Of a stretch of DNA of 64,000 bases, positions 29,461 through 63,361 are shown in pieces (within the stretch, counting starts at the first letter, position 1; each line of letters opens with the position of its first letter). Both the position numbers and the translations under genes were made by a program. Origin of the DNA: Yoonia sp. GPGPB17 (GTDB taxonomy: Bacteria; Pseudomonadota; Alphaproteobacteria; Rhodobacterales; Rhodobacteraceae). The stretch is taken from the NCBI RefSeq assembly GCF_037892195.1, contig NZ_JATACI010000002.1, forward strand, positions 3,720,001 to 3,784,000, read 5' to 3'. The notes under the pieces were generated by a model that was given only the letters and a program-made list of their open reading frames with translations, was not told where the DNA came from and made no database searches.

Positions 29461-29695
29461 TCAGGATGTGACCTCGCGGGCAGCGCCATAGTTGCAGCCG
29501 CTGTGGCCGCTAAGGCCTTTCATGGGTGATGTGGCGTCGGCCACTGCGGCGCAGGCGCTTGCCGTATCATCCCACGCCATCCCCACAGGGCAGCTTTGGG
29601 ATTGGGCGACCGGTTCGGTCGGGGCTAAGCAGTGTCGTGTCTTGGGCGTATGCGGCCATTGGCAATAGGGCCAGGGCAAGTACTGTGAGACGCAT
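29461..29695 (-). CDS. small secreted hypothetical protein, interrupted by a GCTTAGC scar
   Basis: The first frame gives a signal peptide (MRLTVLALALLPMAAYAQDT). The second frame carries a Cys-containing mature part (CPVGMAWDDTASACAAVADA, then GLSGHSGCNYGAAREVTS). The frames meet at 29624-29630, where the coding strand reads GCTTAGC. Reading GCCGGC instead gives QDTTLPAPTEPVAQSQSC, a smooth junction. About 77 residues, probably periplasmic. AGGAGG precedes the start. The function is unknown. Confidence 0.5.
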
Positions 29696-29773
29696 CATGT
29701 CCTCCTACGGTTAGCTAATTAAATAACGGTAGCCCAATCGCACGATTTTTCAACCTGTGCATCTTTGCATTGC

Positions 29774-29787
29774 TTGACCCACATCAA
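29774..29787. promoter_or_regulatory. FNR-type box upstream of ppk2
   Basis: TTGAC-CCAC-ATCAA fits TTGAY-N4-RTCAA. It lies 57 bases before the ppk2 ATG and could equally serve the divergent secreted-protein gene, whose start is 79 bases away. Confidence 0.55.
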
Positions 29788-29843
29788 GGTAATCAAACCG
29801 CATTTTTGCTATGGCCGCGCGATGCAAAAAGAAGGAGAGGGAC

Positions 29844-30712
29844 ATGAAAGATACCGCTGTTGAGACCAAACCAAAGCCACGCAAACGCAGCCGACCTGCG
29901 CGCCTGCCTAAGATCGCCCGACGCCCCTATGAGGCTGAAAAAGCCGAGTTGCAGGCCGAGCTTTTGAAGGTGCAGCTTTGGGCGCAAGAGACAGGTCAGC
30001 GCTTTGTCCTGCTCTTTGAAGGCCGTGATGCGGCTTAAGCAAGGGCGGTACAATCAAGCGCTTCACAGAGCACCTTAACCCCCGTGCGGCCCGCGTCGTT
30101 GCCCTGAACAAACCAACGGATGAAGAACGCGGCCAATGGTATTTCCAACGCTATGTCAACCATCTGCCGACATCGGGCGAAATGGTTCTCTATGACCGCA
30201 GCTGGTACAACCGCGCCGGTGTTGAGCGCGTCATGGGGTTTTGTGAGCCTGAGGAATACCTCGAATTCATGCGCCAGACACCAGAGGTCGAGCGGATGCT
30301 GACGCGGTCGGGTATCCGCCTTTATAAATACTGGTTCTCGGTGACGCAGGATGAGCAGAAACGCCGCTTTGAATCCCGCGCCACTGACCCTCTGAAACAG
30401 TGGAAGCTGTCACCGATTGACAAGGCCAGCCTTGATAAATGGGAAGACTACACCGAAGCCAAAGAGGCGATGTTCTTTTACACCGATACGGCTGACGCCC
30501 CCTGGACCGTGGTGAAATCCAATGACAAGAAACGCGCGCGGCTTAACTGCATGCGTCATTTCCTGTCGACGCTGGATTATCCCGGCAAGGACTACGCCAT
30601 CGCCCAACCGCCGCAGCCCGAGATTGTAGGCAGCGCAAAGAAGGTCATCCATCGGGCCGATCACATTCTGGGCACAGCACTGCATCCTGAAACGCGACGG
30701 GTGAAGGTATAA
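29844..30712 (+). CDS. ppk2: polyphosphate kinase 2, interrupted by a GCTTAAGC scar
   Basis: A PPK2-family enzyme moving phosphate between polyphosphate and nucleoside diphosphates. The Walker A region should read FEGRDAAGKGGTIKRFTEHL, but between GRDAA and KGGTI the sequence has GCTTAAGC (30033-30040) where the Gly codon is required, introducing a stop and shifting the frame. Downstream, VLYDRSWYNRAGVERVMGF (Walker B and lid Arg residues), RLYKYWFSVTQDEQKRRFES and KWKLSP-type (QWKLSPIDKASLDKWEDYTE) motifs are intact. Repaired length is about 289 residues, normal for class I PPK2. AAGGAG precedes the start at 29844. An FNR-type box sits upstream. Confidence 0.88.
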
Positions 30713-30761
30713 AGGCGCTGCCCCGCTTGCGGCCTGATACCACTTAGCTTTAAACCGGGGC

Positions 30762-32003
30762 ATGGCCATACGGCAGTCTTTCACACGACAGCAGGTTTTC
30801 GTCCTTTTCATCTGTGTAGCGATCTTTGCGCTTGGACAGTTTCATCGTGCATCCGGCGGGGTGTTTACGCCGATCCTGATGGACCGTTTCGCGCTTTCGA
30901 CGGCGACGGTTGGCGGCTTGGTTTCGGCCATGTTCTTTGCGACGATTGCGGCGCAACTGCCCTTTGGCCTGGCTTTGGACCGTATCGGGCCGCGTGTCGT
31001 GCTGGGCACATGTGTCCTGATCATTGCCCTTGGCACTGGTGTATTCGCGATTGCGCCCAGCTTTGATCTGGCCCTGCTGTCACGGATCATGATCGGCATC
31101 GGGTTGGCTGCAATGGGGGCCGCCACCCATGTGATCATTGCGCGAAACTTCACAGCCAAGGATTTTGGATATATCGGCGGCCTTGTCGTCACCTTGGGCG
31201 GCGTTGGTGGGCTTTTGGGTACATATCCATTGGCTGTCGCGTTAGAGTATCTGCCTTGGGCGACGGTCTTTGGCGGTGTGGCCTGTATCACGCTGGCGCT
31301 GGCGTGGCCTGTTTTTCACCTTGTACGGCCCGGCCCTGCCGCCGCCGATGATCATCAAGACCCGACCGGGGGCGTGCATGGTGGCTATCTCACACTGCTG
31401 CGCCAACCTGAATTTCTAAAAATTCTGACCCTCGGCGCGGTCACCTATGCGCCAATCACAACGATCACGGGTCTTTGGGGCGGGCCCTTTCTGCAAGACG
31501 TGGCCAATCTCTCTGCCGGACAATCGGGGGCTGTGCTGCTGCTCCTTTTCGCGGCAACCATCGCGGCGGGATACGTCTTTGGATCGCTGGACCGGTATGT
31601 CGCCTCGCGAAGGGCGCTGATCTGCGCCGCATTCGCCGCCTCATGCGGCAGCCTCTTCGCCTTGGCGGCGTTCGCCAAGCCACCGGTCGCACTGTCGATC
31701 TTATTGCTGGTGATCATGGTGTTCAGCCAGCAATTCTACATCCCCCTCAGCGCCCACATGCGCAAGAGTGTCGAAGACAATCTGCTGGGGCGGGCATCGA
31801 CGCTACTGTCGCTCATATCCGTCGCAGCGATCCCGGCAATGCAACTGGCCTTTGGTGCCATTCTGGATGTGACGGCCAAATGGGGCTTTGCGACGCCAGA
31901 TCAATACCGGACGGCCTTCGGCGCGATGGGCGCTGTGATCCTTGGCGCCGGGTTGCTTTATCTGACGTCACGCAACATCAATGATGATGCGCAAGATGGT
32001 TAG
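30762..32003 (+). CDS. MFS transporter
   Basis: A 413-residue major facilitator protein with about twelve transmembrane helices. FHRASGGVFTPILMDRFAL leads into the second helix, and GLALDRIGPRVVLGTC is the loop 2-3 motif (G-x-x-x-D-R-x-G-R-R type). YVASRRALICAAFAASCGS carries the equivalent loop in the second half. The substrate cannot be predicted. It follows ppk2 by 50 bases but a functional link is not evident. Confidence 0.85.
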   Translation: MAIRQSFTRQQVFVLFICVAIFALGQFHRASGGVFTPILMDRFALSTATVGGLVSAMFFATIAAQLPFGLALDRIGPRVVLGTCVLIIALGTGVFAIAPSFDLALLSRIMIGIGLAAMGAATHVIIARNFTAKDFGYIGGLVVTLGGVGGLLGTYPLAVALEYLPWATVFGGVACITLALAWPVFHLVRPGPAAADDHQDPTGGVHGGYLTLLRQPEFLKILTLGAVTYAPITTITGLWGGPFLQDVANLSAGQSGAVLLLLFAATIAAGYVFGSLDRYVASRRALICAAFAASCGSLFALAAFAKPPVALSILLLVIMVFSQQFYIPLSAHMRKSVEDNLLGRASTLLSLISVAAIPAMQLAFGAILDVTAKWGFATPDQYRTAFGAMGAVILGAGLLYLTSRNINDDAQDG

Positions 32004-32007
32004 CAGA

Positions 32008-32262
32008 TCAGGCTTGGCGCAGCTCAGCGAAAGTCTCACGGTTCACGCAGTAGGCTGGCGCCTGATCAACATGTGCCGTTTCAGCCAGCAAGCGATCGCA
32101 TTTTTCCACCTGTTCGCATCCCCGACAGCCGGTAATCATATCGGCATATTCGGCGATGTTGATTTTATCCTCATCCAATGCGGTCGACAGATCGACATCA
32201 CACGCCTTGGCCATCTTAATGACCCGCCAAAAGTGATCGCGTATATCCCCTAGGGTTTGCAT
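32008..32262 (-). CDS. DUF6455 family protein
   Basis: An 84-residue protein with GDIRDHFWRVIKMAKACDVD, a conserved pair of Cys in ITGCRGCEQVEKCDRLL, and a late Cys in APAYCVNRETFAEL. This is the pattern of the DUF6455 proteins widespread in Rhodobacteraceae. Function is unknown; the Cys cluster might bind a metal or haem. GGAGG eight bases before the ATG at 32262 decides this start over upstream Met codons. A weak FNR-type box lies 57-70 bases above. Confidence 0.7.
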   Translation of the reverse strand: MQTLGDIRDHFWRVIKMAKACDVDLSTALDEDKINIAEYADMITGCRGCEQVEKCDRLLAETAHVDQAPAYCVNRETFAELRQA

Positions 32263-32318
32263 TTCCAAGCCTCCGGTTGCGGATGGCGTTGTCATAACAG
32301 CCCGGAAAAACAAAAACC

Positions 32319-32332
32319 TTGCGCTAGATCAA
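32319..32332. promoter_or_regulatory. imperfect FNR-type box upstream of the DUF6455 gene
   Basis: TTGCG-CTAG-ATCAA; on the minus strand it reads TTGAT-CTAG-CGCAA, one mismatch from TTGAY-N4-RTCAA. It is oriented 57-70 bases upstream of the DUF6455 start at 32262. Confidence 0.35.
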
Positions 32333-32460
32333 GTCATCGCCCGCACCCGAAATCACGGCACTTTGCGGTGTTGGGTCGCCATATCACAGGTTGACGGTAC
32401 CCCGCGTCTTCTTCTTAAAACACCAAAGCCCCGCCAAACATGCCGCAAAGGATCACCTCT

Positions 32461-33309
32461 ATGTCTGATAGTCTCGCTCTTTTGGGTGTCAAAGGCGGCC
32501 CGGCCATTCGTCCGGGTTCCAACATGCCGACGGCCATGCTGTTGAAACTTGCCGGGAAAACCATTCTTGTCGATGCCGGGCTGGGCGTCACACGTGGCAT
32601 TTGCGACCAAGGCGTCGCACTAACCGAAATCGACCTGATCGTGATCACACACCTGCACTCTGATCACTACCTCGAACTCGGGCCCTTCTTTCACACGGCG
32701 TGGACAGCCGGGCTTAATCGCACAATCACTGTGATCGGTCCAAAGGGTCTGGATACCTATTGGACAGGCTTCCAAGACAGCATGCGTTTCGACATTGACC
32801 TGCGCATACGCGACGAAGGGCGCTGCGATTTCGATGGCCTTGCCGACATCCAGATCATTCAGGACACGATGACCTTTGGCGACATCACGCTGCGCACAAT
32901 GCGCAACCTCCATCCACCGATCATCGACACATTTGCACTGCGCTTTGAGGCAGGCGGCAAAGCCGTCGTCCTCTCCGGCGACACCGCCTACATGGATGAC
33001 ATGGCCCCATTCGCCAAAGGTGCCGACCTGTTGGTCCATGAAGCCATGCTGCGCGACGGGGTCGAGGCGCTCTGCGCCCTTATGACAAACGGTGATGAGC
33101 GCTTGCGCATCCACATCTTGCGCAGTCATACCGATGCCGTCGATGTTGGCCGCATCGCGAAGGATGCAAATGTAAGACAACTGGCGCTCAACCACATGGT
33201 GCCCGACGGTGACCCTGACTTCACCGATCACCATTGGGAAACCGAGGTGCGCAGGCATTGGACCGGTCCCTTTCATTTTGGTAAGGATGGTATGAAGATC
33301 GCGTTCTAA
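32461..33309 (+). CDS. MBL-fold metallo-hydrolase
   Basis: A 282-residue metallo-beta-lactamase fold hydrolase of the RNase Z/AtsA-like branch. The metal motif HxHxDH appears as VITHLHSDHYLELGPFFHTA, then VVLSGDTAYMDDMAPFAKGA (Asp ligand) and LALNHMVPDGDPDF (C-terminal His). No signal peptide. The substrate is unknown. It starts at 32461 after AAGGAT and is followed 35 bases later by a VOC protein, with which it may be co-transcribed. Confidence 0.85.
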   Translation: MSDSLALLGVKGGPAIRPGSNMPTAMLLKLAGKTILVDAGLGVTRGICDQGVALTEIDLIVITHLHSDHYLELGPFFHTAWTAGLNRTITVIGPKGLDTYWTGFQDSMRFDIDLRIRDEGRCDFDGLADIQIIQDTMTFGDITLRTMRNLHPPIIDTFALRFEAGGKAVVLSGDTAYMDDMAPFAKGADLLVHEAMLRDGVEALCALMTNGDERLRIHILRSHTDAVDVGRIAKDANVRQLALNHMVPDGDPDFTDHHWETEVRRHWTGPFHFGKDGMKIAF

Positions 33310-33344
33310 CAGCGACATACAGTTCAGCTTCAGCGGAGGCAGCA

Positions 33345-33716
33345 ATAGTTAACGTTCTGGGTATCGGCGGCATCTTTTTTCGGGCGAAGGACCCCGAGGC
33401 ACTTAGCCTTTGGTACGAAACGACATTCGGCATCGCCAAGGTCACCGACAGCTACGACGACCCGGTCTGGACGCAAGAAGGCGGGACAACCGTCTTCGCG
33501 CCGTTCAAAAAGGACACCACCTATTTCGGACGCCCCAAGCAACAATGGATGATTAACTTCCGGGTCGATGATCTGGACGCCGCGGTTGCTGCGCTGGACG
33601 TGGCGGGCATCGCCGTCAAGGTCGCGCCCGAACGCTACCCCAACGGGCGATTTGCGCGGCTGGAGGACCCAGAAGGCAATCCCATAGAACTCTGGCAAGA
33701 GATGCCGCCACCATAG
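33345..33716 (+). CDS. VOC (glyoxalase-like) family protein with non-standard start
   Basis: An open frame of about 122 residues clearly encodes a vicinal-oxygen-chelate protein: VLGIGGIFFRAKDPEALSLW, GGTTVFAPFKKDTTYFG, WMINFRVDDLDAAVAALDVA and RLEDPEGNPIELWQE are the usual order. No ATG, GTG or TTG lies at the beginning. GGAGG is followed at the right spacing by ATA (33345-33347), which suggests either an ATA start or an ATG misread. The function is unknown, in the glyoxalase or dioxygenase superfamily. It follows the MBL gene. Confidence 0.72.
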   Translation: MVNVLGIGGIFFRAKDPEALSLWYETTFGIAKVTDSYDDPVWTQEGGTTVFAPFKKDTTYFGRPKQQWMINFRVDDLDAAVAALDVAGIAVKVAPERYPNGRFARLEDPEGNPIELWQEMPPP

Positions 33717-33805
33717 GGCCGACGTACCAATCCGGCACGCATTGCCCCTGCCCGATACCCCGGCTATCAAGGGCCAAACTCAATTCCAGCGCGGAGCGTC
33801 CCCCA

Positions 33806-35460
33806 ATGGCTGCCAATCAATTCGTCTACTTCATGGACGGCGTGTCCAAAACCTATCCCGGCGGGAAAAAGGTGTTTGAAAACATCCGGCTGAACTTTCT
33901 GCCCGGCGTGAAAATCGGTGTGGTTGGCGTGAACGGCACTGGTAAATCGACGCTGATGCGGATTATGGCCGGGCAAGACAAGGACTTCGCGGGCGAAGCA
34001 TGGGCGGCCGAAGGGGCGCGCGTCGGCTATCTGCCGCAAGAACCGGAACTCGACCCAAACCTGACCGTGCGTGAAAATGTCATGCTCGGCGTGGCCGACA
34101 AAAAGGCGATTTTGGACCGCTACAACGAAGTGGCGATGAACTATTCCGAAGAAACCGCAGATGAAATGGCGGCCCTGCAAGACCAGATCGACAGCCAGAA
34201 CCTCTGGGACCTGGACGCACAGATCGACATCTCGATGGAGGCGCTCCGATGTCCACCAGACGATGCCGATGTCACGACCTTATCCGGAGGTGAAAAACGC
34301 CGTGTGGCCCTATGCCAGCTGCTGCTGGATGCCCCTGACATGCTGCTCTTGGACGAACCGACCAACCACCTTGACGCCGAAACCATTGCTTGGCTGCAAC
34401 AGCACCTGATTGATTACAAAGGCACAATCCTGATCGTTACCCACGACCGCTACTTCCTGGATGCGATCACCGGTTGGATTTTGGAACTGGATCGTGGGTC
34501 TGGTATCCCGCACGAGGGCAACTATTCCAGCTGGCTGGAGGCCAAGGCAAAGCGTCTGGAACGCGAAGCCAAAGACGACAAATCCAAGCAGCGCACATTG
34601 GCACGCGAACTCGAATGGATGCGGCAAGGGGCCAAGGCACGGCAAGCCAAATCCAAGGCACGGATCGCGGCCTACAACGAAATGGCCAACCAGTCCGAGC
34701 GTGAAAAAATGGGCCGCGCTCAGATCATTATTCCAAACGGCCCCCGTTTGGGCTCCAAGGTCATCGAAGTGGACGGTCTGAAGAAGGCCATGGGCGATAA
34801 GCTCCTGATCGAGGACCTGTCCTTCGATTTGCCCCCGGCGGCATCGTTGGCGTGATCGGGCCAAACGGCGCGGGTAAATCAACGCTGTTTTCCATGCTGA
34901 CAGGGCAAGCCGAACCTGACGAAGGATCCGTCACTTACGGCGACACTGTGAAACTTTCCTACGTCGACCAATCTCGTGACGCGCTGAACCCCGACACCAC
35001 CGTCTGGGAAGAGATCAGTGGTGGCGCGGAAATCATCGAGTTGGGTGACGCCTCCATGAACTCGCGCGCCTACTGTTCTGCCTTCAACTTCAAGGGTGGC
35101 GATCAGCAAAAGAAAGTAGGGCTGCTGTCGGGTGGTGAACGCAACCGCGTGCATATGGCGAAATTGCTGAAGTCCGGCGGCAATGTCCTGCTGCTGGACG
35201 AACCGACCAACGATTTGGACGTCGAAACGCTACGCGCGCTCGAAGACGCATTGGTCAGCTTTGCGGGTTGTGCCGTCGTGATCAGCCACGACCGTTTTTT
35301 CCTCGATCGTATCTGCACGCACATACTCGCCTTTGAAGGGGATGCCCATGTGGAATGGTTCCAGGGCGCGTTTACGGATTACGAAGAGGACAAGAAGGCA
35401 AGGCTGGGGGCTGATGCATTGGAGCCAAAACGGATGAAGCACAAGAAGTTCGTGCGGTAA
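33806..35460 (+). CDS. ettA: energy-dependent translational throttle protein EttA, interrupted by an apparent frameshift
   Basis: An ABC-F ATPase of about 551 residues that binds the ribosomal E site and gates elongation by ATP level. Two ABC domains: Walker [14 protein letters not shown] with signature [13 protein letters not shown], and [13 protein letters not shown] with [13 protein letters not shown]. The linker ([20 protein letters not shown]) and the [12 protein letters not shown] arm are the EttA type. The frame breaks at a C5 run (34832-34836); one added C gives [18 protein letters not shown]. The break lies between the linker and the second Walker A and is probably a sequencing loss. 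Confidence 0.92.
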
Positions 35461-35669
35461 GTGCGGAGCGCGGGCGTCTAGCAATACTAAACCTTTTGTG
35501 CGCAATAGCGATAAAGCACAACGGTGGGGCGCTAAGCCGACCTCGAGGACGCTGCGGTATGGGTCCTGTTGGGCAGGGCCTGCGCCACACATCCAACGCT
35601 GCTTATGTGGGGGACGTTGCAAAAGCGGCCTCCGGGGGAGGTCGACCGCTGCCTAGCGTTGGCCGAGCG

Positions 35670-36683
35670 TTAACGCTTCCAGAGTTTACCGAAGTTTCCC
35701 TGATAAGTGTTTTGGCGTTTTGTGATCTCGACCGTTGGATAACTCATACCCACATTTGGTAGACCTGAGGAGTAGCGGCGCTGCTCATCAACTAGTTCTG
35801 CAAATGTTCGCTTGATCGGGCACATCTTACTGTATGTGCCCTCGGATCCACCCCAAAGCTCGAGAAACCTTGCCGCAACACCGTGCCTTTCTCGAAAGAC
35901 ATCGTACGCGCTTTCAAACGCAGCTTTTGATTGCGCCATCTGTCCCTCAGTAGTTTCGTGAAACTCTTTTCGCATCTTGAAAAGTGCCGACACGAAACCC
36001 CTAACAACAGCTTTCATGTCGACTAGATCGCTATCGAGCGCTGCGACTTCTGTACGTGTTTTTTTGCGGATATTCGAGTCGACCCAGACCTCTTTGGGGA
36101 CCGGAAGTTCTTGGACTGATATACTGACTACTTCGGAGTTCTCGATATCTTCCCAATCGGCGACAAGGAACTTGCTAGTAATGCCAGCGTTACTGAACGG
36201 AAGGACCTTGTGGGTCATTATGTTTCTTAGAGCATCAAAAAGCCGGAATTCAAAACTGGCATCGAAAGCCACGCTTATCTGTCTTTTGAACTCAGTATCT
36301 AGAGCCGAATTACCCGCAGTTATTCCGTCCAGTCTTTGTGGCGCTTGATCACAAAGCGCACGGTAGGCAGTCAGCAATGACAGGACCGTTTGCCGAATTC
36401 GGTCTTTCTTCTTTCCGATAGATAACTCGATGGGCTCTGATGAAGCGTTCTCACCGTGAACGTGGTGCTCTAGTGCTACGGTAAAGAGGTTGCTTTCAAA
36501 GTCCGCATAACAGGCTGAAACCAGAGCGAACAATTCTTCTATCTCGTTCATTGAGACCAAGAATTTGTATGATTCCATTAACTCATGGGCTGATAACTCA
36601 TCAATTTTGGTGGAAAGACCGTCTCCTAGCACATCGCAAAGCTCGTAGCTGCTATTGCTCAATTTGGCTTCCCCACAAATCAT
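35670..36683 (-). CDS. hypothetical protein with HEPN-like RNxxxH motif
   Basis: Not assigned to a family. About 337 residues, mostly helical, no signal or membrane segment. [19 protein letters not shown] near residue 155 contains RNIMTH, the R-N-x3-H pattern of HEPN ribonucleases found in many defence and toxin systems. This is a short-motif match only. GC is well below the neighbouring rimO. The start region overlaps the rimO 3' end by about 30 bases (ATG at 36683; an alternative at 36701), suggesting insertion exactly at the end of rimO. No partner antitoxin is adjacent on the same strand. Confidence 0.45.
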
Positions 36684-39174: not shown

Positions 39175-39185
39175 GTACAGCGTGG

Positions 39186-40694: not shown

Positions 40695-41499
40695 ATGACC
40701 GAGACAAATGAAATGGGTGTGCGCCGCTTTGGCCGGGTCAACTGGTTAGGGACCTGGACCCTTGTACGGCGTGAGGTTGCGCGGTTCATGAACGTCTGGT
40801 CGCAAACTGTGTTGGCCCCATTGATCAACGCTGGGTTGTTGTTGCTGATCTTTACAATTGCCATTGGATCGCAACGCGGCGAGGTGATGGGCGTGCCATT
40901 CATGGTGTTTCTGGCCCCGGGCATTCTGACCATGACGGTGATCCAGAATGCCTTTGCGAATACGTCATCCAGTCTTGCTTCTGCTAAGGTGCAGGGCAAC
41001 ATCGTGGATACCCTGATGCCGCCCTTGTCAGCTAAGCGAACTTGTGACGGGTTATATAGGGGGTGCTGTAGCGCGCGGTGGTTTGGTTGCAGTCGTGATT
41101 GCAGTTGGCAGCGCGTTGTTTCTGGGCATTGGCATGCAAGCACCGATTTGGGTGATCACCTTTGTTGTTCTGGGCTCTGTGTTGATGGGCGGATTGGGGG
41201 TGATTGCAGGCATCTACGCCAATAAATTCGATCAGCTTTCTGCGATTTCGAATTTTCTGGTCACGCCCTTGGCGTTTCTGTCTGGCACATTCTATTCAAT
41301 TGAGGCGCTCCCGCCGTTCATGCAGGCGCTGAGCCATGCTAACCCGTTCTTTTACATCATTGACGGCGTGCGCTATGGGATGATCGGTGTAAGCGACAGT
41401 AGCCCGTGGATCGGTCTTTTGGTTGTCAGTGTCGCTTGCGTCGTTGTAGTTGGAATTTGTTTGCGCTGGATGCATACGGGGTATCGGATGAAATCCTAA
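40695..41499 (+). CDS. ABC-2 type transporter permease, interrupted by a GCTAAGC scar
   Basis: A permease of about 268 residues of the ABC-2 family (NodJ/KpsM-like) with six predicted transmembrane helices: RREVARFMNVWSQTVLAPLI at the start, FMVFLAPGILTMTVIQNAF in the middle, and FLSGTFYSIEALPPFMQALS near the end. The frame breaks at 41031-41037, where GCTAAGC stands; replacing it by GCCGGC joins LMPPLSA to GELVTGYIGGAVARGGLVA as expected. No ATP-binding subunit is adjacent. The gene upstream is a divergent SH3 protein. Confidence 0.8.
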
Positions 41500-45938: not shown

Positions 45939-46844
45939 TGACCCATTTTCTTGATATTCATACGACGCCCACAGACGCTCTGCGAGACATCGTCGACAAT
46001 GCGCGGGCAATGAAAACCGCACGCGCCGGACAGCCCAAAGGCGCGCCGGATGCAGACCAGCCCTTGGTTTAGCCATATGGTCGCGCTGATTTTTGAGAAA
46101 CCCTCGACCCGGACGCGTGTGTCGTTTGACGTGGGCGTCCGGCAGATGGGGGGCCAGACGATGGTGTTGTCAGGGGCGGACATGCAGCTGGGCCATGGTG
46201 AGACGATTGCAGATACAGCGCGCGTCTTGTCGCGCTATGTCGATCTGATCATGATCCGGACCTTTGAAGAGCAGACGCTGCTGGATATGGCCGAATATGC
46301 GACCGTCCCGGTTATCAACGGTCTGACGAACCGCACACACCCTTGTCAGATCATGGCCGATATCATGACGTTCGAAGAACATAACGGCCCGATCAAAGGC
46401 AAAAAGGTTGTCTGGTCAGGGGACGGCAACAATGTCTTTGCCAGCTTTGCCCATGCGGCTAAGCAGTTTGAGTTTGATCTGGTCTTTACAGGCCCGCCGC
46501 CGCTTGATCCTGAGCCCGCGCTTGATGGGCTCTACACCACTGTGCGCGATCCGAATGAGGCCGTGCAGGGAGCTGATCTGGTGGTCACCGATACCTGGGT
46601 CAGCATGCACGATCCGCAGTCCGCACGGGAACGGCGGCACAACCAGTTGCGCGGCTATCAGGTGAACGATGCGCTTATGGCGCAGGCGAAAGACGATGCG
46701 CTTTTCATGCATTGCCTGCCTGCGCACCGCGATGATGAGGCAACAAGCAGCGTGATGGACGGGCCGCACTCTGTCATCTTCGACGAGGCGGAAAACCGAC
46801 TACATGCGCAAAAGGCGATCATGCGACACTGCCTGGGTGTGTGA
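45939..46844 (+). CDS. argF: ornithine carbamoyltransferase, interrupted by a TTTAGC scar
   Basis: A cytosolic enzyme of about 301 residues making citrulline from ornithine and carbamoyl phosphate. The N-terminus [20 protein letters not shown] is in one frame. The remainder, from [20 protein letters not shown] (carbamoyl-phosphate site STRTR), through NRTHPCQ and [15 protein letters not shown], is in another. They meet at 46066-46074 (GGTTTAGCC), which would read smoothly as a Leu-Ala-Gly-His junction if it were GGCCGGCC. ArgF is highly conserved, so the break is probably artificial. It is last in argD-GNAT-argF; carB elsewhere in the window supplies its substrate. Confidence 0.92.
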
Positions 46845-48639: not shown

Positions 48640-49099
48640 CTATTGCAAGACCTTTAACAGCGCCCGCAAACCCACATCATCAACCTTTTTGGCTGCCGTC
48701 TTGAGCGGCATCCATTTGCGCCTGCGCAATGCGGCCTCGGGATAGGTTTTAGTCGTCTCTTTCACATCAATGCGGTAGACACTGACATGGCAGGTCGCAA
48801 CGCGGCCATCATCGAAGCGTTTCTCCGTCACATAGCCTCCAACCGGTGCTTTGCTGACTTTGCCCTTGTAGACGCTAAGCCTCTTCCCAAGCCTCGATTT
48901 TGGCGGTTTCGGCATCGGTATGCCCGTCCATCGGCCAGCCCTTGGGAATGATCCAGCGCCCGCGCGAGGATTTCACCAAAAGCACCTCTGGCCCCGATTT
49001 ATCATCGCGCAAGCAGAGCGCGCCGACCTGCGCAATTGCAGTCGGATCAACCAAACGAACCTGACGGCCCGTCCAAAAGGAACGATCTAAGTTGCTCAT
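48640..49099 (-). CDS. NUDIX hydrolase, interrupted by a GCTTAGC scar
   Basis: A pyrophosphohydrolase of about 152 residues. VGALCLRDDKSGPEVLLVKS opens the fold, and the Nudix box begins GWPMDGHTDAETAKIEAWEE and must continue A-G-V. At that place the coding strand has GCTTAGC (48874-48880 on the plus strand reads GCTAAGC), producing a stop. GCCGGC would restore EEAGVYKGKVSKAPVGGYVT and the remaining frame to the end (LKTAAKKVDDVGLRALLKVL). The missing Gly is an invariant Nudix-box residue, strong support for the repair. Relatives act on diphosphoinositol polyphosphates or nucleotides; the substrate is unknown. Confidence 0.85.
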
Positions 49100-52156: not shown

Positions 52157-53152
52157 CTAGCGCAGACGATCGCGCATCGGGTTTAGCACCTCAGCAGCGG
52201 CAGCGGTTGGGGTCTTGCGCCCGGCTTTGACATCCGCTTGCGCCGCTTCCATGCGTTTCGCCGTCTGCGGGTCGTCCAACAACAACGCCAGCAAACCATT
52301 GCGAACATCCTGATCAAGCCAGTAACGCCCTTGCGCCTCTCGTGTCATGTCCCAGATACCGGTCTCACGCCGCCACGCAACCAGCGTTTCCATCTCGTCC
52401 CATGCCGTCTTTAAACCCTCTGCTTCAAGTGCCGAAATCGTGAGCGCTTTGGGAAACCCATCCGGATCTTGCGCGCGCTTGCGCAACAATCGTAGCGCGC
52501 CGGCATAATCCGCACAGGTTCGCGTGGCTTGTGATTTCAGGTCACCATCAGCCTTGTTTACAAGGATCAGATCAGCCATTTCCATGATGCCGCGTTTCAC
52601 GCCTTGCAGCTCATCCCCACCAGCCGGAGCTAAAAGCAACACAAAGAGGTCAGCCATTTGGGCAACGACCGTCTCGGATTGGCCAACGCCGACGGTTTCA
52701 ATCAGCACCACGTCAAAGCCAGCGGCCTCGCAGAGTGCTACAGCCTCACGCGAACGGCGGGCGACACCACCCAATTGGGTCTGGCTGGGGGAGGGGCGGA
52801 TAAAGGCATTGGGATCGCGTGCCAGTTGATCCATCCGGGTCTTGTCACCCAGAATGGACCCGCCCGACCGGGCCGACGACGGATCAACCGCCAAGACAGC
52901 CACGCGTTTGCCCATGCCGGTCAGCATCAGACCGAAGCTTTCAATGAAAGTCGATTTGCCGACGCCGGGCGTTCCAGACAAGCCGATGCGCAAGGATTGC
53001 CTTTCTGTCCCAAGGGTATCCAGCAGCCGCAGCGCATCTTCACGGTGATCAGCACGCCCGCTTTCCACCAGCGTTATGGCCTGTGCCAATGCGCGGCGGT
53101 CGCCGGCCTTTACCCCCGCAGCCAAAGCCATGATATCTGTGGTCTTGCTCAT
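52157..53152 (-). CDS. meaB: methylmalonyl-CoA mutase-associated GTPase MeaB
   Basis: A 331-residue G3E-type GTPase that protects and reloads adenosylcobalamin in methylmalonyl-CoA mutase. Walker A IGLSGTPGVGKSTFIESFGL, VAVLAVDPSSARSGGSILGD, switch region IETVGVGQSETVVAQMADLF, and ILVNKADGD are all present. Functionally linked to mce (19788-20192): both serve propionyl-CoA conversion to succinyl-CoA. The mutase genes are not in the window. Start at 53152 (MSKTTDIMAL) is used; a Met at 53158 is also possible. Confidence 0.94.
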   Translation of the reverse strand: MSKTTDIMALAAGVKAGDRRALAQAITLVESGRADHREDALRLLDTLGTERQSLRIGLSGTPGVGKSTFIESFGLMLTGMGKRVAVLAVDPSSARSGGSILGDKTRMDQLARDPNAFIRPSPSQTQLGGVARRSREAVALCEAAGFDVVLIETVGVGQSETVVAQMADLFVLLLAPAGGDELQGVKRGIMEMADLILVNKADGDLKSQATRTCADYAGALRLLRKRAQDPDGFPKALTISALEAEGLKTAWDEMETLVAWRRETGIWDMTREAQGRYWLDQDVRNGLLALLLDDPQTAKRMEAAQADVKAGRKTPTAAAAEVLNPMRDRLR

Positions 53153-56531: not shown

Positions 56532-56678
56532 ATCCATGTCGTTCGCGTGGGTTAGGGCTCCGACCTGATGCAGATCCTGTTGCTATCCCGGTTGACCGGG
56601 ATAGTCACGTGGCGCTGGTGGATTGGCCACCACACCATCTCGCTTGACCAACCCTGAAAACCCCACCATATCCCTGCC

Positions 56679-58477
56679 ATGACTGATCTTTCGCATATCC
56701 GTAACTTCTCGATCGTGGCGCATATTGACCACGGCAAATCGACGCTTGCTGACCGCTTGATCCAATCCACCAACACGGTGGCCGATCGGGATATGAAGGC
56801 GCAGCTTCTCGATAGTATGGATATCGAGCGCGAACGCGGGATCACGATCAAGGCCAACACGGTGCGCATCGACTACAAAGCCGACAATGGCGAGGATTAT
56901 GTCCTTAACCTGATCGACACCCCCGGCCACGTCGACTTTGCCTATGAGGTATCGCGGTCCATGCGGGCCGTTGAAGGCTCCCTGCTGGTTGTGGACAGCA
57001 CCCAGGGGGTGGAGGCGCAGACGCTGGCCAATGTCTACCAAGCCATTGATGCCGATCATGAAATCGTACCCGTCCTGAATAAGATCGATCTGCCCGCAGC
57101 GGAATGCGACCGGGTGGCCGAACAGATCGAAGACGTGATCGGCATCGACGCATCCGGCGCGATTCAGGTCAGCGCCAAAACCGGCATTGGGATTAAGGAC
57201 ACGCTGGAAGCTATCGTCAACCTGCTGCCCCCGCCTGAGGGTGACCGCGATGCGCCGCTCAAGGCGATGCTGGTGGATTCATGGTACGACAGCTACCTCG
57301 GCGTCATCGTTCTGGTCCGCGTCATCGACGGGGTGATGAAAAAGAACGACCGGGTTAAGTTCATGTCGAACGGCACGATCCACGGGATCGACAAGATCGG
57401 CGTGTTCCGCCCGCAGATGCAGGACGTGGCCGAACTGGGGCCGGGTGAGATCGGGTTCATTACGGCCTCCATCAAGCAGGTGCGCGATACCCGAGTGGGG
57501 GATACGATCACCTCGGAACGCAAAGGCTCCGAGGTGGCGCTGGACGGTTTTAAGCCCGCACAGCCGGTGGTGTTCTGCGGGCTGTTCCCCGTGGACAGCT
57601 CCGAATTCGAAGACCTGCGCGATGCCATCGACAAGCTGGCGCTCAACGATGCGTCCTTCAGCAATGAGATGGAAACGTCAGCGGCCCTCGGCTTCGGCTT
57701 CCGCTGCGGCTTCCTCGGGCTTCTTCACCTCGAAGTCATCCGCGACCGGATTGAGCGGGAATACAACATTGAGCTGATCACGACGGCGCCGTCGGTCATC
57801 TACCACGTCTACATGCGCGATGGAGAGATGATCGAGTTGCACAACCCCGCCGACATGCCTGACATGACCCATGTGGACCATCTGGAGGAACCGCGGATCA
57901 AGGCCACAATCCTTGTGCCCGATGACTACCTCGGCGATGTGCTGAAACTCTGTCAGGATCGGCGGGGGTACAGCAGGACCTGACCTATGCAGGCTCCCGC
58001 GCGATGGTGGTCTATGACCTGCCGCTGAACGAGGTGGTATTTGACTTCTATGACCGGCTGAAATCCGTGACCAAGGGCTATGCGTCTTTTGATTACCAGA
58101 TGACGGGGTATCAACAGGACAATCTGGTGAAAATGTCGGTGCTGGTGAACGACGAACCCGTCGATGCGCTGTCCATGATGGTGCACCGTGACCGGGCCGA
58201 GATGCGCGGACGGGCGATGGTCGAAAAGCTCAAAGATCTGATCCCCCGCCACATGTTCAAAATCCCGATCCAGGCGGCCATCGGCGGCAAAGTCATCGCG
58301 CGCGAGACGCTCTCCGCACTGCGCAAAGACGTGACGGCCAAATGCTATGGCGGCGACGCGACGCGGAAACGCAAGCTCTTGGACAAGCAGAAGGCCGGTA
58401 AGAAAAAGATGCGGCAGTTCGGGAAAGTGGATATCCCTCAGGAAGCGTTTATTTCGGCGTTGAAGATGGATGGGTAG
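56679..58477 (+). CDS. lepA: elongation factor 4 (LepA), interrupted by an apparent frameshift
   Basis: A translational GTPase of about 599 residues that back-translocates or aids ribosome assembly. G1 [21 protein letters not shown]3 [14 protein letters not shown] and G4 [15 protein letters not shown] are present. The LepA-specific C-terminal domain ([40 protein letters not shown]) closes the protein. The frame breaks at a G5 run (57964-57968); one added G gives [20 protein letters not shown]. The gene is conserved in nearly all bacteria, so a sequencing loss is likely. Confidence 0.96.
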
Positions 58478-58662
58478 GTTGGACGAACTAGTTTCAACAT
58501 AGCAACGTTGTTTTGTGTCAAGTGAGCAGTCTAGTCACCATCTTTTGCGATACTCCAAGTTTATGGTCCGGAAGTCGCGGGTTATCTTTGATGCTTTGTC
58601 GGCTTGACGGAAATGGACTGCACTTCGGGTTCATCCTGCAATGAACTACTCCTGAAACAGAC

Positions 58663-59295
58663 CTACTTTATGGCATCTTTGATCTGGCGAATTGCCTCTT
58701 CTTCGAAAAGAGTATCAATTGACCCTTCAGGATTAGGGGTGAAAAAGAGTTCTTCATAGCTAGTCGTCACTGGAACCATACTAGGGCCAATCAGATTTTG
58801 TTCGGTACCTTCCTGAAAACCAAGTAGGTTTGGGTCAACAAATCCCCGTATCCGATATGTGCCGTCTTCGTTTCGTGAAATTGACTCCAGCTGGCCAAAT
58901 GAGCTGCCATCTTCGTTGAAGAAGATCGACTTGCGCGCAGATTCGGTTATCGCTGCGAGAGTGAATGTGCCGTTGTTTCGAGAGTCACATGTATCTTCGA
59001 CTGCGCGCACTTCGGAAAGCTCCATGCTGACTCGTGTACCATCACAAAACTCGAAATTCTGGCCAGTCATTACCGCTTCGGGTCCTGTTAGAAAGTATCC
59101 AAGCCGCGGGCGGATATTACTTAGGAGCCTGTAGTGGGTCGCGATCCTCTGATCCGCCTCAGTTTGCGAACTTTGAGCCACGGCAGCGACAGTCTGGCCC
59201 AGACAAACTGCTGCCGTGAGCAGTCCGCGTGTGACTAAGGATCTAAGTACGTCACCGTAATTTGCCCGGTTTGCAAAGGAATGCGGATTATCCAT
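58663..59295 (-). CDS. secreted hypothetical protein of an AT-rich insert
   Basis: A 210-residue protein with an N-terminal export signal (RSLVTRGLLTAAVCLGQTVA, cleavage near VAQ). The mature part has FCDGTRVSMELSEVRAVEDT and SIFFNEDGSSFGQLESISRN. No family recognised. GC content is below that of lepA. It is followed on the same strand, 55 bases upstream, by a membrane-protein gene; both lie in an apparent insert between lepA and 60209. Confidence 0.5.
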   Translation of the reverse strand: MDNPHSFANRANYGDVLRSLVTRGLLTAAVCLGQTVAAVAQSSQTEADQRIATHYRLLSNIRPRLGYFLTGPEAVMTGQNFEFCDGTRVSMELSEVRAVEDTCDSRNNGTFTLAAITESARKSIFFNEDGSSFGQLESISRNEDGTYRIRGFVDPNLLGFQEGTEQNLIGPSMVPVTTSYEELFFTPNPEGSIDTLFEEEAIRQIKDAIK

Positions 59296-59350
59296 TTTTC
59301 CTTTTTTCCCGTTATTGTGCCGACGACTATTACGCTATCTGCGGTTGTAA

Positions 59351-59803
59351 CTAGATGCAATAACGGTGGAACCCCCCGGTGCCAAACAAACGTTCCAATT
59401 CTGTTTGTTGCTGTTGCGATAAAGCTATGTGGTTCAGATGTGCCGTTTGCGACTCAGCCAATCTCATTCCTGCCGACCTGCTGGTAGCCAAAGAGTACAG
59501 TATGCAAAAGGAAACGAGAGGGACTATCACAAACTTGAGCCATTCGTCTGAGTCGCCCACGCCGGACCGAACCGCCTTTGTTAGCAGTGCCAAAAACGCC
59601 GCCAAGGCATACAGCAATTGGTCGTCCCTAAAGCCGGACACAATAGCGATAACTGAGTGAGAGAGGATTTCATTGACACTAGAAGGAACTTCCCAAAGTC
59701 CAACGTCAAAATATAGATAGTATCCGTAAAGGAAGGAATATCCCACGAGATAGAGCGACGCAGAAAGCAAGGTTATGGCGATCGCAAGTCTAACGTCGGT
59801 CAT
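59351..59803 (-). CDS. hypothetical membrane protein of the same insert
   Basis: A 150-residue protein with three predicted helices (LAIAITLLSASLYLVGYSFL, LLYALAAFLALLTKAV, LKFVIVPLVSFCILYSLATS) and a polar C-terminus with QQQQTELERLFG. No family recognised. Start at 59803 (MTDVRLAIAI) is preferred to 59821. Low GC, like its downstream neighbour. Confidence 0.5.
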   Translation of the reverse strand: MTDVRLAIAITLLSASLYLVGYSFLYGYYLYFDVGLWEVPSSVNEILSHSVIAIVSGFRDDQLLYALAAFLALLTKAVRSGVGDSDEWLKFVIVPLVSFCILYSLATSRSAGMRLAESQTAHLNHIALSQQQQTELERLFGTGGFHRYCI

Positions 59804-60208
59804 TCCGTTCCTCCCAAGCAAAAACTAAGAAAAGTGTCATAGTTTAAGGTTAACGACACGATAACGCCTCGAACTCCAAAGTATAGATGTCGCGTCTTTC
59901 GCTAGAGGAACTCAAGAATGACCCCGTACCTCCCGCCATCCATCCTCATCCACCGCCTTCAACCGCTTGAGCGCCGCTTCCGCCTCGGCCCGGAGCGCCG
60001 CTTTCGCGTCGCGCTTCACCACCTCCACCTCGGCCACCAGCGTGTCGACTTCGGGCAACGACGTGCCAGTCGCCGCCGAGCCGAGGTTGATTGCGCGTTG
60101 ACGACCGGCGGGCACCCGACATCAAACAAAGCCATGAACCCGACGAGACTATAATACTCAACTACGACGACAGCCGCAGAGAGAGCGCATTCTCATCGAC
60201 ACTAAATC
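59804..60208. other. gene-free stretch with a possible decayed frame
   Basis: Between 59912 and 60115 the minus strand has an open frame with alpha-helical, Ala/Glu/Arg-rich sequence (EVDTLVAEVEVVKRDAKAAL), GC-rich and likely the tail of a lost gene; it has no clear start. The rest shows no coding signal. Confidence 0.3.
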
Positions 60209-60577
60209 TCAGACGAACCCCCGCACCCAAAGCACGAATAGCAGTAAAACGGCCGTTACCAGCAAGGCAAGTGCAATCGACGCCACCAGATTGAGCGCCG
60301 CATCGCGCCGTTGTGTCGCGATATCAACACTGCCCAGATGGGCCATGACGTTGCGGTGCGCCCTTTGCGCCTTTGCCATATCAATCATTTTGGCCAGCTT
60401 TGGATTTGCGGCCAAGGCAACGCCCTGCGCCAGATAGCTCGCATCCTGGCGTACCCGGCGCGGTAGCAGCCGCCCCGCCTTGCGGATCTGCGCGTCAAGG
60501 GACTTGCCACGCACGCGTAGCTGACCCTCCATCGCCGCACGCACTTCGTCCACCATCTGTTGCAACGTCTTTGCCAT
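60209..60577 (-). CDS. tail-anchored hypothetical membrane protein
   Basis: A 122-residue protein: a basic, helical cytosolic part (MAKTLQQMVDEVRAAMEGQL, ARKAGRLLPRR-like IRKAGRLLPRRVRQDASYLA) and one C-terminal membrane helix (LNLVASIALALLVTAVLLLF). Function unknown. It diverges from the hydrolase gene, starts 79 bases apart, so a shared promoter is likely. Confidence 0.6.
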   Translation of the reverse strand: MAKTLQQMVDEVRAAMEGQLRVRGKSLDAQIRKAGRLLPRRVRQDASYLAQGVALAANPKLAKMIDMAKAQRAHRNVMAHLGSVDIATQRRDAALNLVASIALALLVTAVLLLFVLWVRGFV

Positions 60578-60656
60578 GGCGCACCGGGTAAAGGCTCGGG
60601 GCGATTTGCTCAATCCCTCTGGTCCCCGGCGGCGCGGAAGGGTAGCAAGTAGATGC

Positions 60657-61394
60657 ATGTTGAACACGGTGACATATGACGGGCCTGCTGGCCCACCGCT
60701 GCTGATCGCGCATGGGCTCTTTGGGTCGGCGCGCAACTGGGGGTGATTGCGAAGCGGTTGTCGGCCGCGCGGACCGTGATCGCAGTGGATATGCGGAACC
60801 ATGGCAGCAGCGATTGGTCCGATAGCCACAGCTACGCCGATCTGGCGGGTGATCTGGCCGACGTGATCACCGAACCTGCGGATGTGCTGGGGCATTCGAT
60901 GGGGGGCAAGGCGGCGATGGTGCTGGCGTTGCAGAACCCCGCTTTGGTCAACCGCCTGATCGTCGCCGATATCGCGCCGGTCAGCTATGGGCACAGCCAG
61001 ATGGGACCGATTGAGGCGATGCGCCGCGTTGATCTGGCAACCATCGAAAACCGAAGCAATGCGAAAACACAGCTCGGCACTTTGGAACCGGGTGTCGCCG
61101 ACTTCCTGCTGCAAAGCCTTGATATGAAAGAGGGGCGCTGGCGGCTGAACCTTGATATCCTCAGGGCCGAAATGGATAAGATCATCGGATTCCCCGACAT
61201 CACGGGGCGGTTTGACGGACCGACGTTGTTCCTGTCAGGCGGCGCATCCGACTATGTGCAACGCGAAGCGCGGCCCCAAATCAAAACCCTTTTCCCCAAC
61301 GCCAAATTCGCCAAAATCCCCGGCGCTTAGCCACTGGCTGCACGCCGAAAAACCGCGCGAGTTTGAGGCTGCAGTCAGCGCTTTCCTTGGCTGA
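60657..61394 (+). CDS. alpha/beta hydrolase (YbfF-like esterase), two apparent frame breaks
   Basis: A hydrolase of about 245 residues. The oxyanion region is LLIAHGLFGSARNWG, VDMRNHGSSDWSDSHSYADL follows, and the nucleophile elbow is DVLGHSMGGKAAMVLALQNP. The catalytic His is in HWLHAEKPREFEAAVSAFLG. First break: a G5 run at 60739-60743, where one added G gives NWGVIAKRLSAART. Second: GCTTAGC at 61325-61331 just before the catalytic His; GCCGGC gives the expected G-A-G-H-W. Both are probably sequence errors. Relatives cleave short acyl esters or acyl-CoA. Confidence 0.85.
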
Positions 61395-61466
61395 CAGACA
61401 CAGCCTTGCCCGCCCCGGCGCGGCCCGCTAATCTGCGGTGAAATCGTCTAACGAAAGAGACCCATC

Positions 61467-61580
61467 ATGACCCGTATCGCCCTGATCATCGCCATCCTCG
61501 GCTTGGCCGCATGTGAAACCGTACAAGGGGTGGGCCGCGATATCACCAACGCCGGGGCCGCGATCGACCGCTCACTTTAG
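61467..61580 (+). CDS. entericidin-like lipoprotein
   Basis: A 37-residue lipoprotein, MTRIALIIAILGLAACETVQ and then GVGRDITNAGAAIDRSL. The lipobox is LAAC, and the tail VQGVGRDITNAGAAI is the conserved entericidin A/B pattern. Entericidins are small membrane lipopeptides linked to stress-induced lysis in enterobacteria; the role in alphaproteobacteria is not established. AAAGAGA lies before the ATG. Monocistronic. Confidence 0.85.
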   Translation: MTRIALIIAILGLAACETVQGVGRDITNAGAAIDRSL

Positions 61581-61590
61581 GGCGCGCCTA

Positions 61591-61779
61591 TCAGCCTTTG
61601 TTGGTCGTGATGGCCTGCGCCACATAGTAGCTGACAGGCATGGCCAGCACGGCCCCAACACCCGCCGCAATCACGATGGGCACCAATGTGTCATACCCGG
61701 CGGTCAGGGCCGCGATAACCAGAATACCGGCCATTGTTGTGCCGATGAATGAATAAAGCATGGATGCAAGACGCAGCAT
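61591..61779 (-). CDS. small two-helix membrane protein
   Basis: A 62-residue protein with two hydrophobic helices (MLYSFIGTTMAGILVIAALT and LVPIVIAAGVGAVLAMPVSY). Similar proteins in Rhodobacteraceae are misnamed CTP synthetase in databases; nothing here supports that. Function unknown. An FNR-type box lies 60-73 bases above its start, suggesting oxygen control. It converges with the entericidin gene. Confidence 0.6.
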   Translation of the reverse strand: MLRLASMLYSFIGTTMAGILVIAALTAGYDTLVPIVIAAGVGAVLAMPVSYYVAQAITTNKG

Positions 61780-62265
61780 TGGGATCACTCCAGTGAATGT
61801 GATGTGCAAAGCTTAACAATCGGGGGTATGCCGCGTCATTGACTCAGGTCAAACGCGCGTGGATCTAAACACAAGAATATGATTTTATTTGTAAAATATT
61901 GAGTAGCGGTGCGCTCACACGGAGCGCATTCGAACTGCATCATGCCTAATTCTGATGATGCCGCAACTGATCAAATTGACTACCCCGCAGCTCAATGCCG
62001 CAGATCGAGTGCCGCCTGACTTTCCACCTACCTCATCTTTGGTGCACCCCGCCTGACGCGGAAGGCGCTGCGCCAGTCGTTCCAACCCGTCCGGCGTCAT
62101 CTTGCAAAGCGCAGTAATAAGCGCCGATTTTCAATCCTCCTCGTCGGTTGGGCGCCATGTCACGCGTTCGGTTGATACCAACCCATCTAGTACTGTTGAA
62201 TGAAGAAATGGCCGCTCGCCGCGTTGAGTTGGCCATTCTGAAAACAGCCAACCACATCGCCTAAG
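61780..62265. other. gene-free stretch with an FNR-type box and degenerate sequence
   Basis: Apart from the FNR-type box I see no functional unit. On the minus strand between about 61915 and 62260 two overlapping frames contain protein-like words (GAYYCALQDDAGRVGTTGAA; LERLAQRLPRQAGCTKDEVG) but no start or family, so a decayed gene is possible. Confidence 0.35.
61839..61852. promoter_or_regulatory. FNR-type box upstream of the small membrane protein
   Basis: TTGAC-TCAG-GTCAA, a perfect TTGAY-N4-RTCAA palindrome, 60-73 bases before the start at 61779 on the minus strand. Confidence 0.6.
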
Positions 62266-62670
62266 TCACGCGGTGTCGCGTGGACGGAGAAGGAACAGGC
62301 CCCCCAAGCCTCCGATCGTGCCGATCACATGGTTCATCTCTGCGACGACGTCCGGCGCGTGTAGACCCCAGACCGGCCAAGCCGCCCACCAACCAAGATA
62401 GTAGAATACGGCCATGAAGGTCACGATGCCCCAGGCCTCGCCAGTGAGTTTCGCAGCCCTGACAGCGACCCAAACCAGCAGCAGGTTGACCCCTAGCGCC
62501 AGCATCGCGCCGCGAAACGCATGGTAATTTGAATGGGTCGGCGCATCGGGCAGATTCACAGACTGAAACTCTGGGTTCCAGGTAAAGTTGATTGTGTACC
62601 AAAAGCTGATGAAGCCCCCGATCAGGCCAAGCAAAAGCAAAAGCCGACCGACCAAAATTCTTGAGTTCAT
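62266..62670 (-). CDS. four-helix membrane protein downstream of the Crp/Fnr gene
   Basis: A 134-residue membrane protein (MNSRILVGRLLLLLGLIGGF, LALGVNLLLVWVAVRAAKL, WGIVTFMAVFYYLGWWAAW, GTIGGLGGLFLLRPRDTA). No family recognised. It lies 151 bases downstream of, and on the same strand as, a Crp/Fnr-type regulator, and may be its target. Start at 62670 is preferred to 62694. Confidence 0.6.
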   Translation of the reverse strand: MNSRILVGRLLLLLGLIGGFISFWYTINFTWNPEFQSVNLPDAPTHSNYHAFRGAMLALGVNLLLVWVAVRAAKLTGEAWGIVTFMAVFYYLGWWAAWPVWGLHAPDVVAEMNHVIGTIGGLGGLFLLRPRDTA

Positions 62671-62821
62671 TTCACGTTTCCTTTGTGGCGGCACGTAACC
62701 GCAGTGTCATTCAAGTGCAATTCACGCTCTTGCAAAGTGAAAACTATGCCCATCGAAGGAGGGAACAGCACCTTCTCCGGCCTGCCGTATCGTGGGCGGG
62801 GGCTTCACGCCTTATCTTTTG

Positions 62822-63361
62822 TTAAGAGAGGTGTGCTTTCTTGCGAATTCTGCTGAGCGAGACCGGTGTTATCCCAAGATAAGACGCTATGTAGTGCAGT
62901 GGAACGAAATCCAGAATGTCTGGTTCTTCTGCGATCAAGGCCCGGTACCGCTCTTCCGGCGTTCTCGCAATACGGTCCACGAAAAGGTCTTGATAGTTCA
63001 CCAAGCAGTGGACCATGACTGATTCCATGTAATCCTTCAGGCCAGGAGTTCGCGCTGCCTCCCGCTCGAACTCGGCTTTGCCCAGCAAACGCACCACACA
63101 AGGTGTAATGGTCTCAAGTTCGTATTTACTTGGTTCTTCGGTGTGCATGTTCTGCAAAGAGGCGCAGAGTTCGCCGGGCAGGAAGAACTTTACTGAGACA
63201 TCCGCACCATCCTTGTTGTGCCAGAGCCGAATACAACCAGACTCAATGAAGTAGGCGTCTTAGCTCACATCGCCGAAGTGTAGAAGCGTGCAGTGTTTCG
63301 GAAACGTCTTGGAAACGCCGAGCCGTGAGAACAATCCTTGTAGCTCATCCGAAACCTTCAT
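62822..63361 (-). CDS. Crp/Fnr-family regulator, interrupted by an in-frame stop
   Basis: About 179 residues. Effector-binding domain (CTLLHFGDVS, then DAYFIESGCIRLWHNKDGAD, KFFLPGELCASL) and a C-terminal HTH (LHYIASYLGITPVSLSRIRK). Codon 34 is TAA in the same frame as the rest; the context AGC-TAA-GAC would read S-R-D with CGG, which fits the family (VSRDAYFIESG). The GCTAAG context resembles the scars in other genes. No N-terminal Cys cluster, so it is not a true Fnr oxygen sensor. Either a pseudogene or an artefact. Confidence 0.75.

Follow-up and report, generated by a model that had tools for sequence, protein, structure and literature searches.

The sequence under study is a stretch of 64,000 nucleotides from Yoonia sp. 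GPGPB17 (positions 3720001-3784000 of contig C2; the assembly comprises 4.21 Mb in five contigs), here called the window, in which six genes are broken at short related strings such as GCTAAGC and GCTTAAGC. We consider these scars, at a probability of about 0.9, to be systematic consensus errors of a long-read-only assembly, most likely Oxford Nanopore, at GCCGGC sites that the strain's own NaeI-type restriction-modification (R-M) system would methylate. Among the genomes compared, no other has these insertions; where they lie, related genomes have GCCGGC or a near match to it, and the R-M genes are present. The R-M genes are thus real, the breaks in the genes probably not. A first-pass annotation of the window had proposed that the consensus goes wrong systematically wherever a modified GCCGGC occurs; the proposal is now supported by the private frameshifts, by the GCCGGC-like positions at which they fall, by accompanying homopolymer deletions and by the R-M pair.

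In outline, the C5-cytosine methyltransferase encoded beside the NaeI-type endonuclease would mark GCCGGC on both strands, and the methyl mark would shift the pore signal. The basecaller or polisher would then settle on GCTTAAGC, GCTAAGC, GCTTAGC or near variants, all T/A-rich and one or two bases longer than the true site, and the extra one or two bases would break the reading frame.

Insertions in the window and in unselected genes

Named Tateyamaria and Phaeobacter genomes match the DNA of the strain, which is thereby probably one of the Roseobacteraceae. The scars were compared with three coded genomes, G011, G009 and G002, and with Tateyamaria 4-55. On the + strand, GCTTAAGC at 30033..30040 interrupts ppk2 with two bases more than in all four relatives (the G011 orthologue matches TIGR03707, PPK2), GCTAAGC at 41031..41037 adds one base to an ABC transporter permease gene (G011 orthologue NF011648), and GGTTTAGCC at 46066..46074 adds one base to argF (TIGR00658, ornithine carbamoyltransferase, in G011). 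On the - strand, a gene previously labelled NUDIX carries one extra base at 48874..48880, which reads GCTAAGC on the + strand and GCTTAGC on that of the gene; its G011 orthologue has no NCBIfam match at 1e-20. The two remaining genes owe their names, secreted protein and hydrolase, to the first-pass annotation only. In the former, GCTAAGC (+ strand letters) at 29624..29630 is one base longer than in G011, G009 and G002, and in the latter GCTTAGC (+ strand letters) at 61325..61331 is one base longer than in G011 and G002.

All six scars are therefore net insertions relative to every relative that spans them, in 19 of 19 comparisons (G011, 6/6; G009, 5/5; G002, 6/6; Tateyamaria 4-55, 2/2), by one base at five and by two at 30033. 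G009 has no match at 61325, and Tateyamaria 4-55 none at four of the sites. The breaks that had been predicted in six genes are thus found where they were placed, none of the relatives spanning them has the same frameshift, and the scar comes in a few related strings rather than in one. A further, scar-like case is the in-frame stop in a Crp/Fnr-like gene on the - strand (63259..63264; CTTAGC in + strand letters), recognised from the reading frame. The stop falls inside a fold of the cyclic-nucleotide-binding type (best PDB match 3dn7, a cyclic-nucleotide-binding regulator, 1e-5). The downstream fragment has no matches in 12 other genomes of the genus and no DNA alignments to the relatives, and as a scar this stop has no support from them.

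Frameshifts were also counted in genes chosen without regard to the scars. Open reading frames (ORFs) from 800 kb of G011 were aligned to 719 kb of Yoonia sp. GPGPB17 DNA, giving 335 orthologous genes over 319 kb. In these, 55 genes contain 57 frameshifts, 29 of them insertions and 28 deletions; comparison with G009 gave 38 frameshifts in 166 genes and comparison with G002 gave 33 in 164. Six comparisons of relative with relative yielded only 1 in 177, 4 in 179, 3 in 220, 3 in 216, 1 in 136 and 1 in 140 genes. Tateyamaria 4-55, apparently assembled from short reads to judge by its contig title (NODE_3), showed one frameshift in 39 genes and none in 40 against G011, while the Yoonia DNA showed 10 in 48 Tateyamaria 4-55 genes, six of them scar-like. 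This excess, set against the near-clean controls, indicates that the breaks belong to the Yoonia assembly, and they have no counterpart in the genomes compared. In the reverse direction, Yoonia ORFs gave 15 frameshifts against G011, spread over 12 of 362 genes, and one in 52 genes against Tateyamaria 4-55. Since the queries here are themselves broken ORFs, we infer that several of the reverse events mirror the Yoonia breaks; the comparisons between relatives are the cleaner control.

Scar strings, for example GCTAAGC, GCTTAGC, GCTTAAGC, GTTTAGC and GCTTAGGC, account for 20 of the 57 frameshifts and for 20 of the 29 insertions. Named by their G011 orthologues, the scarred genes include those for PBP2 (mrdA), CcoN, sulfate adenylyltransferase and ornithine carbamoyltransferase (argF). 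With about one in six orthologous genes (55/335) frameshifted across the 719 kb compared, inferences about gene content, pseudogenes or essentiality from this assembly are unsafe before a check against reads.

The deletions form a second class of error. The union of the three comparisons with G011, G009 and G002 (67 events) has 37 deletions, of which 24 have at least four equal bases in a row nearby, as against 18% of random 20-base stretches. Insertion scars together with homopolymer deletions are the pair of errors expected of a long-read-only consensus, and the deletions are compatible with nanopore reads of native DNA. The window contains eight more frameshifts, all deletions and several at homopolymers, at 918, 1818, 15035, 16032, 17425, 34838, 57969 and 60744, those at 16032 and 34838 resting on one relative each. 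Three are single-base losses on the + strand: at 17425 in a CCCC context (relative to three relatives), and at 57969 and 60744 in GGGGG contexts (two relatives each).

The motif marked by the insertions

A scan that presupposed no motif took each hexamer seen at least 20 times in G011 and measured the rate of net insertion at it in the Yoonia DNA. GCCGGC ranked first of 1999 hexamers (8/76, nominal p 1.7e-6), and in the corresponding pentamer scan CCGGC ranked first of 512 (30/1120). The insertion errors are therefore concentrated at one short motif. In a slightly wider count, insertions were found at 9 of 76 GCCGGC sites against 54 of 4758 at all other palindromic hexamers. The same scan for deletions put CCCCCC first (9/70). 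Viewed from the scars, the G011 DNA is at most one mismatch from GCCGGC at 13 of 20, and equally close at 25 of 247 positions picked at random (p 5e-8).

Genome-wide, GCTTAAGC occurs 166 times in Yoonia sp. GPGPB17 and 11-52 times in 24 members of the genus, a 3- to 15-fold difference in raw counts, and is a better marker of scars than GCTTAGC. The count of the latter taken alone proved uninformative, at 343 against 93-500 in the same 24 genomes (both strands), or 54 in 719 kb of Yoonia DNA where 800 kb of G011 has 51. In the window it occurs eight times, compared with 5.1 +/- 2.4 in shuffled sequence, a number that 18 of 100 shuffles reach and that is within chance. Four of the eight are scars already listed, those at 7682 and 46458 have the same length as in the relatives, and that at 28264 is unaligned. 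The eighth, GCTAAGC at 35531-35537, lies beyond the end of an ABC-F-like ATPase ORF and is one base longer than in G002, the sole relative that spans it; it is perhaps a further scar.

It is against these results that general low consensus quality, meaning errors at homopolymers and at random in which a modified motif plays no special part, has to be judged. Such a cause would fit the 37 of 57 frameshifts that are not scar strings, as well as the 24 of 37 deletions near homopolymers, but it does not account for the first rank of GCCGGC among the 1999 hexamers, for the pattern common to the scars, for the raised GCTTAAGC counts or for the presence of the predicted R-M system. We therefore regard low quality alone as scarcely credible.

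Some other sequence features were seen along the way. Two single-base insertions, at C2:3581165 and C2:3678221, have the context TGGATCTCGC in common, and GGATCC is scarce in the Yoonia DNA (106 against 396.5 expected, both strands); together these are perhaps signs of a second modified motif. A comparison of 6- to 8-mers with G011 was swamped by other differences and was set aside. In it, many words containing GAG or CTC are rarer in G011 than in Yoonia sp. GPGPB17, a hint that G011 may have a sequence avoidance of its own. Within the Yoonia genome, CTTAAGC alone is mildly high (81 against 57.5 expected).

A NaeI-type system and the scarcity of GCCGGC

The first-pass annotation had predicted a GCCGGC-specific methyltransferase and advised a search for one of NgoMIV or NaeI type; such a search found a C5-cytosine methyltransferase beside a NaeI-type endonuclease, whose homology makes GCCGGC the putative specificity. 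The genome has two C5-cytosine methyltransferases (PF00145). One of them, at about C2:2814395-2815351 (1.5e-69), adjoins the endonuclease, at about C2:2813438-2814322, 0.9 Mb from the window. The latter belongs to the NaeI family (PF09126, 1.1e-39, 136.8 bits with a cut-off of 25) and matches NaeI itself (PDB 1ev7) at 2.2e-19, with residues 15-262 of its 293 in the phmmer match. Its ORF of 294 codons is uninterrupted, and the D-x-K residues, which we take to be catalytic in NaeI, align as VDIK in the Yoonia protein and VDCK in 1ev7. The family is confined to Yoonia sp. GPGPB17 among the 41 genomes searched (this one, 24 of the genus and 16 of the class). A scan of genome contigs found seven further NaeI loci, and six of them have an adjoining methyltransferase that is 54-94% identical, a sign that the two genes travel as a pair; the Tateyamaria 4-55 endonuclease is 93% identical to that of Yoonia.

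NaeI recognizes GCCGGC. In the review PMC4081073 the same site is given for NgoMIV, and that of NaeI is printed as GCC|CCG, taken here for a misprint. PMC8565308 reports GCCGGC (3) by RIMS-seq for an Aeromonas strain, interpreted as 5-methylcytosine (m5C) at position 3. From these homologies we infer that Yoonia sp. GPGPB17 probably methylates GCCGGC.

Two neighbouring observations concern defence genes. A SIR2-domain gene (L025:2666-3709, + strand; PF13289; PADLOC SIR2, 2.5e-114) adjoins the NaeI-type pair in divergent orientation and would make with it a small putative defence cluster. A second type II R-M pair lies at about 15.6-17.8 kb of G000:C4, a 37 kb contig, where a C5-cytosine methyltransferase (PF00145; PADLOC MTase_II, 1.8e-169) is followed by an endonuclease (PADLOC PDLC03404, 1e-132) with no PDB matches at E-values up to 1.

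A rival reading takes the scars for real mutations, made when the NaeI-type enzyme now and then cuts GCCGGC sites of its own cell and error-prone end joining leaves short insertions behind. The intact endonuclease ORF and the centring of the events on its predicted site speak for this. However, the inserted letters are nearly always T or A in one narrow pattern, not the varied insertions and deletions of such repair, and 20 of the 335 genes would be broken, including the orthologues of PBP2/mrdA, ccoN, sulfate adenylyltransferase and argF. Moreover, the homopolymer deletions in the same assembly would require a second cause, and Tateyamaria 4-55, despite its 93% identical enzyme, is almost free of frameshifts against G011 (one in 39 genes, none in 40). 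Self-restriction is accordingly highly improbable, and consensus error at methylated GCCGGC remains our preferred explanation of the scars.

GCCGGC itself is rare in the strain. The window has three sites, compared with 43.1 +/- 7.0 in shuffles, and the genome 166, compared with 1225 for the reversed word used as control (ratio 0.14). The three, at 12179..12184, 52499..52504 and 53102..53107, have the same length as in the relatives; G002 also has GCCGGC at the first and Tateyamaria 4-55 at the second. The Yoonia DNA at 76 aligned GCCGGC sites of G011 shows 65 plain substitutions, nine insertions, two deletions and no identical site, while other palindromic hexamers of G011 are kept in 1245 of 4758 cases. 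Inside genes, 52 of 63 substitutions at GCCGGC are synonymous, against 76% elsewhere. That 65 of 76 sites are substituted, mostly synonymously, indicates that the loss in this lineage is real, most simply as restriction-site avoidance. Genuine loss by mostly synonymous substitution is a second layer beside the scars, and independent of them.

The alternative to consensus error put forward earlier was that methylated cytosines in GCCGGC had really been deaminated. Deamination of m5C is a known route of mutation and a C5-cytosine methyltransferase is present, yet the process yields C to T substitutions, not insertions. Even among the 65 substitutions at G011 sites, its single-transition products GCTGGC and GCCAGC make up only four, against 16 for GCGGGC and GCCCGC. 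As the source of the scars it has next to no likelihood.

A side question, compatible with consensus error at the scars, is whether the scarcity is wholly a matter of miscalling. In favour, Tateyamaria 4-55 bears a NaeI-type system and is only mildly depleted (1171 against 1891, compared with 166 against 1225 in Yoonia), but the 65 plain substitutions, and the synonymous 52 of the 63 in genes, are what real evolution predicts, and we hold this view to be very unlikely. The earlier remark that intact GCCGGC sites are few stands, although miscalling is not the main cause of their rarity. Nor does a NaeI-type system alone yield such a loss, since the ratio of GCCGGC to control in six other genomes that bear one is 0.56-1.33 (Tateyamaria, 0.62; two Rhodobacteraceae metagenome-assembled genomes (MAGs), 0.70 and 0.73; Phaeobacter, 0.56; Sphingomonas, 1.01; a Devosia MAG, 1.33). 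We read the rest of the scarcity as owing partly to miscalling and partly to the history of the lineage. Site rarity and site miscalling are separate signals, to be counted apart.

An early comparison over 104 kb of G011 had shown 24 GCCGGC sites, none conserved, 23 substituted and one deleted, and seemed contrary to miscalling; the insertions were revealed by the 76-site set. Likewise, the finding that none of 17 intact Yoonia sites was common to G011 was dropped as an oddity, as two of 15 alignable sites are common when four relatives are used. GCCGGC is scarce also in G010 (242 against 652 for the control) and G034 (7 against 83), neither of which has a NaeI-family match; other GCCGGC systems may be present in them.

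Points against consensus error, and known precedents

Several results count against consensus error at methylated GCCGGC. The class of scar strings was fixed after the strings had been viewed and insertion was required for membership, so that the +1 or +2 offset of every member is true by definition; nine of the 29 insertions are not scar strings, and a few deletions, such as that at C2:3249747, contain scar-like letters. The contrast between scars and deletion sites is weaker than that with random positions, at most one mismatch from GCCGGC being found in G011 at 13 of 20 scars and 8 of 29 deletions (p 0.018), in G009 at 8 of 12 and 8 of 23, and in G002 at 5 of 11 and 5 of 23. When hexamers were ranked by fit to the scars, AGCCGG (15/20) and GCCAGC (14/20), each counted in two orientations, did better than GCCGGC (13/20); since they fit at least as well, this test alone does not single out GCCGGC. 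One or more of the relatives have GCCGGC exactly at 5 of 20 scar events, at 1 of 10 other insertions and at none of 34 deletions. With 17 sites intact in aligned DNA and 20 scarred in genes, about half of the remaining sites would be miscalled; the other half are read intact, and no feature was found that separates the two. The R-M pair on C4 could add an error motif of its own. Finally, the errors cited here from the two closest reports (PMC10687267 and PMC11610573) are mainly base substitutions or ambiguities, and those of Yoonia are insertions.

The class of error has already been published, and the GCCGGC case is a new motif, probably an artefact with real R-M genes behind it. Among the matches listed in the literature search there was no report of nanopore errors at GCCGGC, which is weak evidence of absence. 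There is about an even chance that miscall scars in finished public assemblies form a readable record of a strain's DNA modifications, such that comparison with relatives, and no reads, can name the modified motif and hence the site that an unassigned methyltransferase recognizes. In the present case the motif read from the window pointed the way to a NaeI-type system at a distance of 0.9 Mb, which suggests that both a modification motif and the R-M system underlying it are recoverable from a finished assembly alone.

Compared with the NaeI R-M system (PF09126; PDB 1ev7 and 1iaw), that of Yoonia sp. GPGPB17 is alike in having a homologous endonuclease and an adjoining C5-cytosine methyltransferase; its predicted endonuclease, of putative GCCGGC specificity, is divergent in sequence from NaeI. 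As for the errors, PMC11610573 describes methylation-induced ambiguous positions in nanopore assemblies and holds native DNA modification responsible for basecalling mistakes that upset gene-by-gene typing. Most of these positions are ambiguous between purines or between pyrimidines, around RA/TY and with no motif known from the literature, whereas the Yoonia errors are insertions at a known restriction site. The nearest precedent is that of Chiou et al. 2023 (PMC10687267), who describe nanopore errors centred on motifs in Listeria strains with lineage-specific modification. In both cases the consensus of particular strains appears to go wrong around a short motif, in connection with such modification, and related genomes helped to bring the errors to light. 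They differ in that the Listeria motifs are GCAGC and GCTGG, while in Yoonia sp. GPGPB17 the motif would be GCCGGC, with T/A-pattern insertions of one or two bases recognised from the finished assembly.

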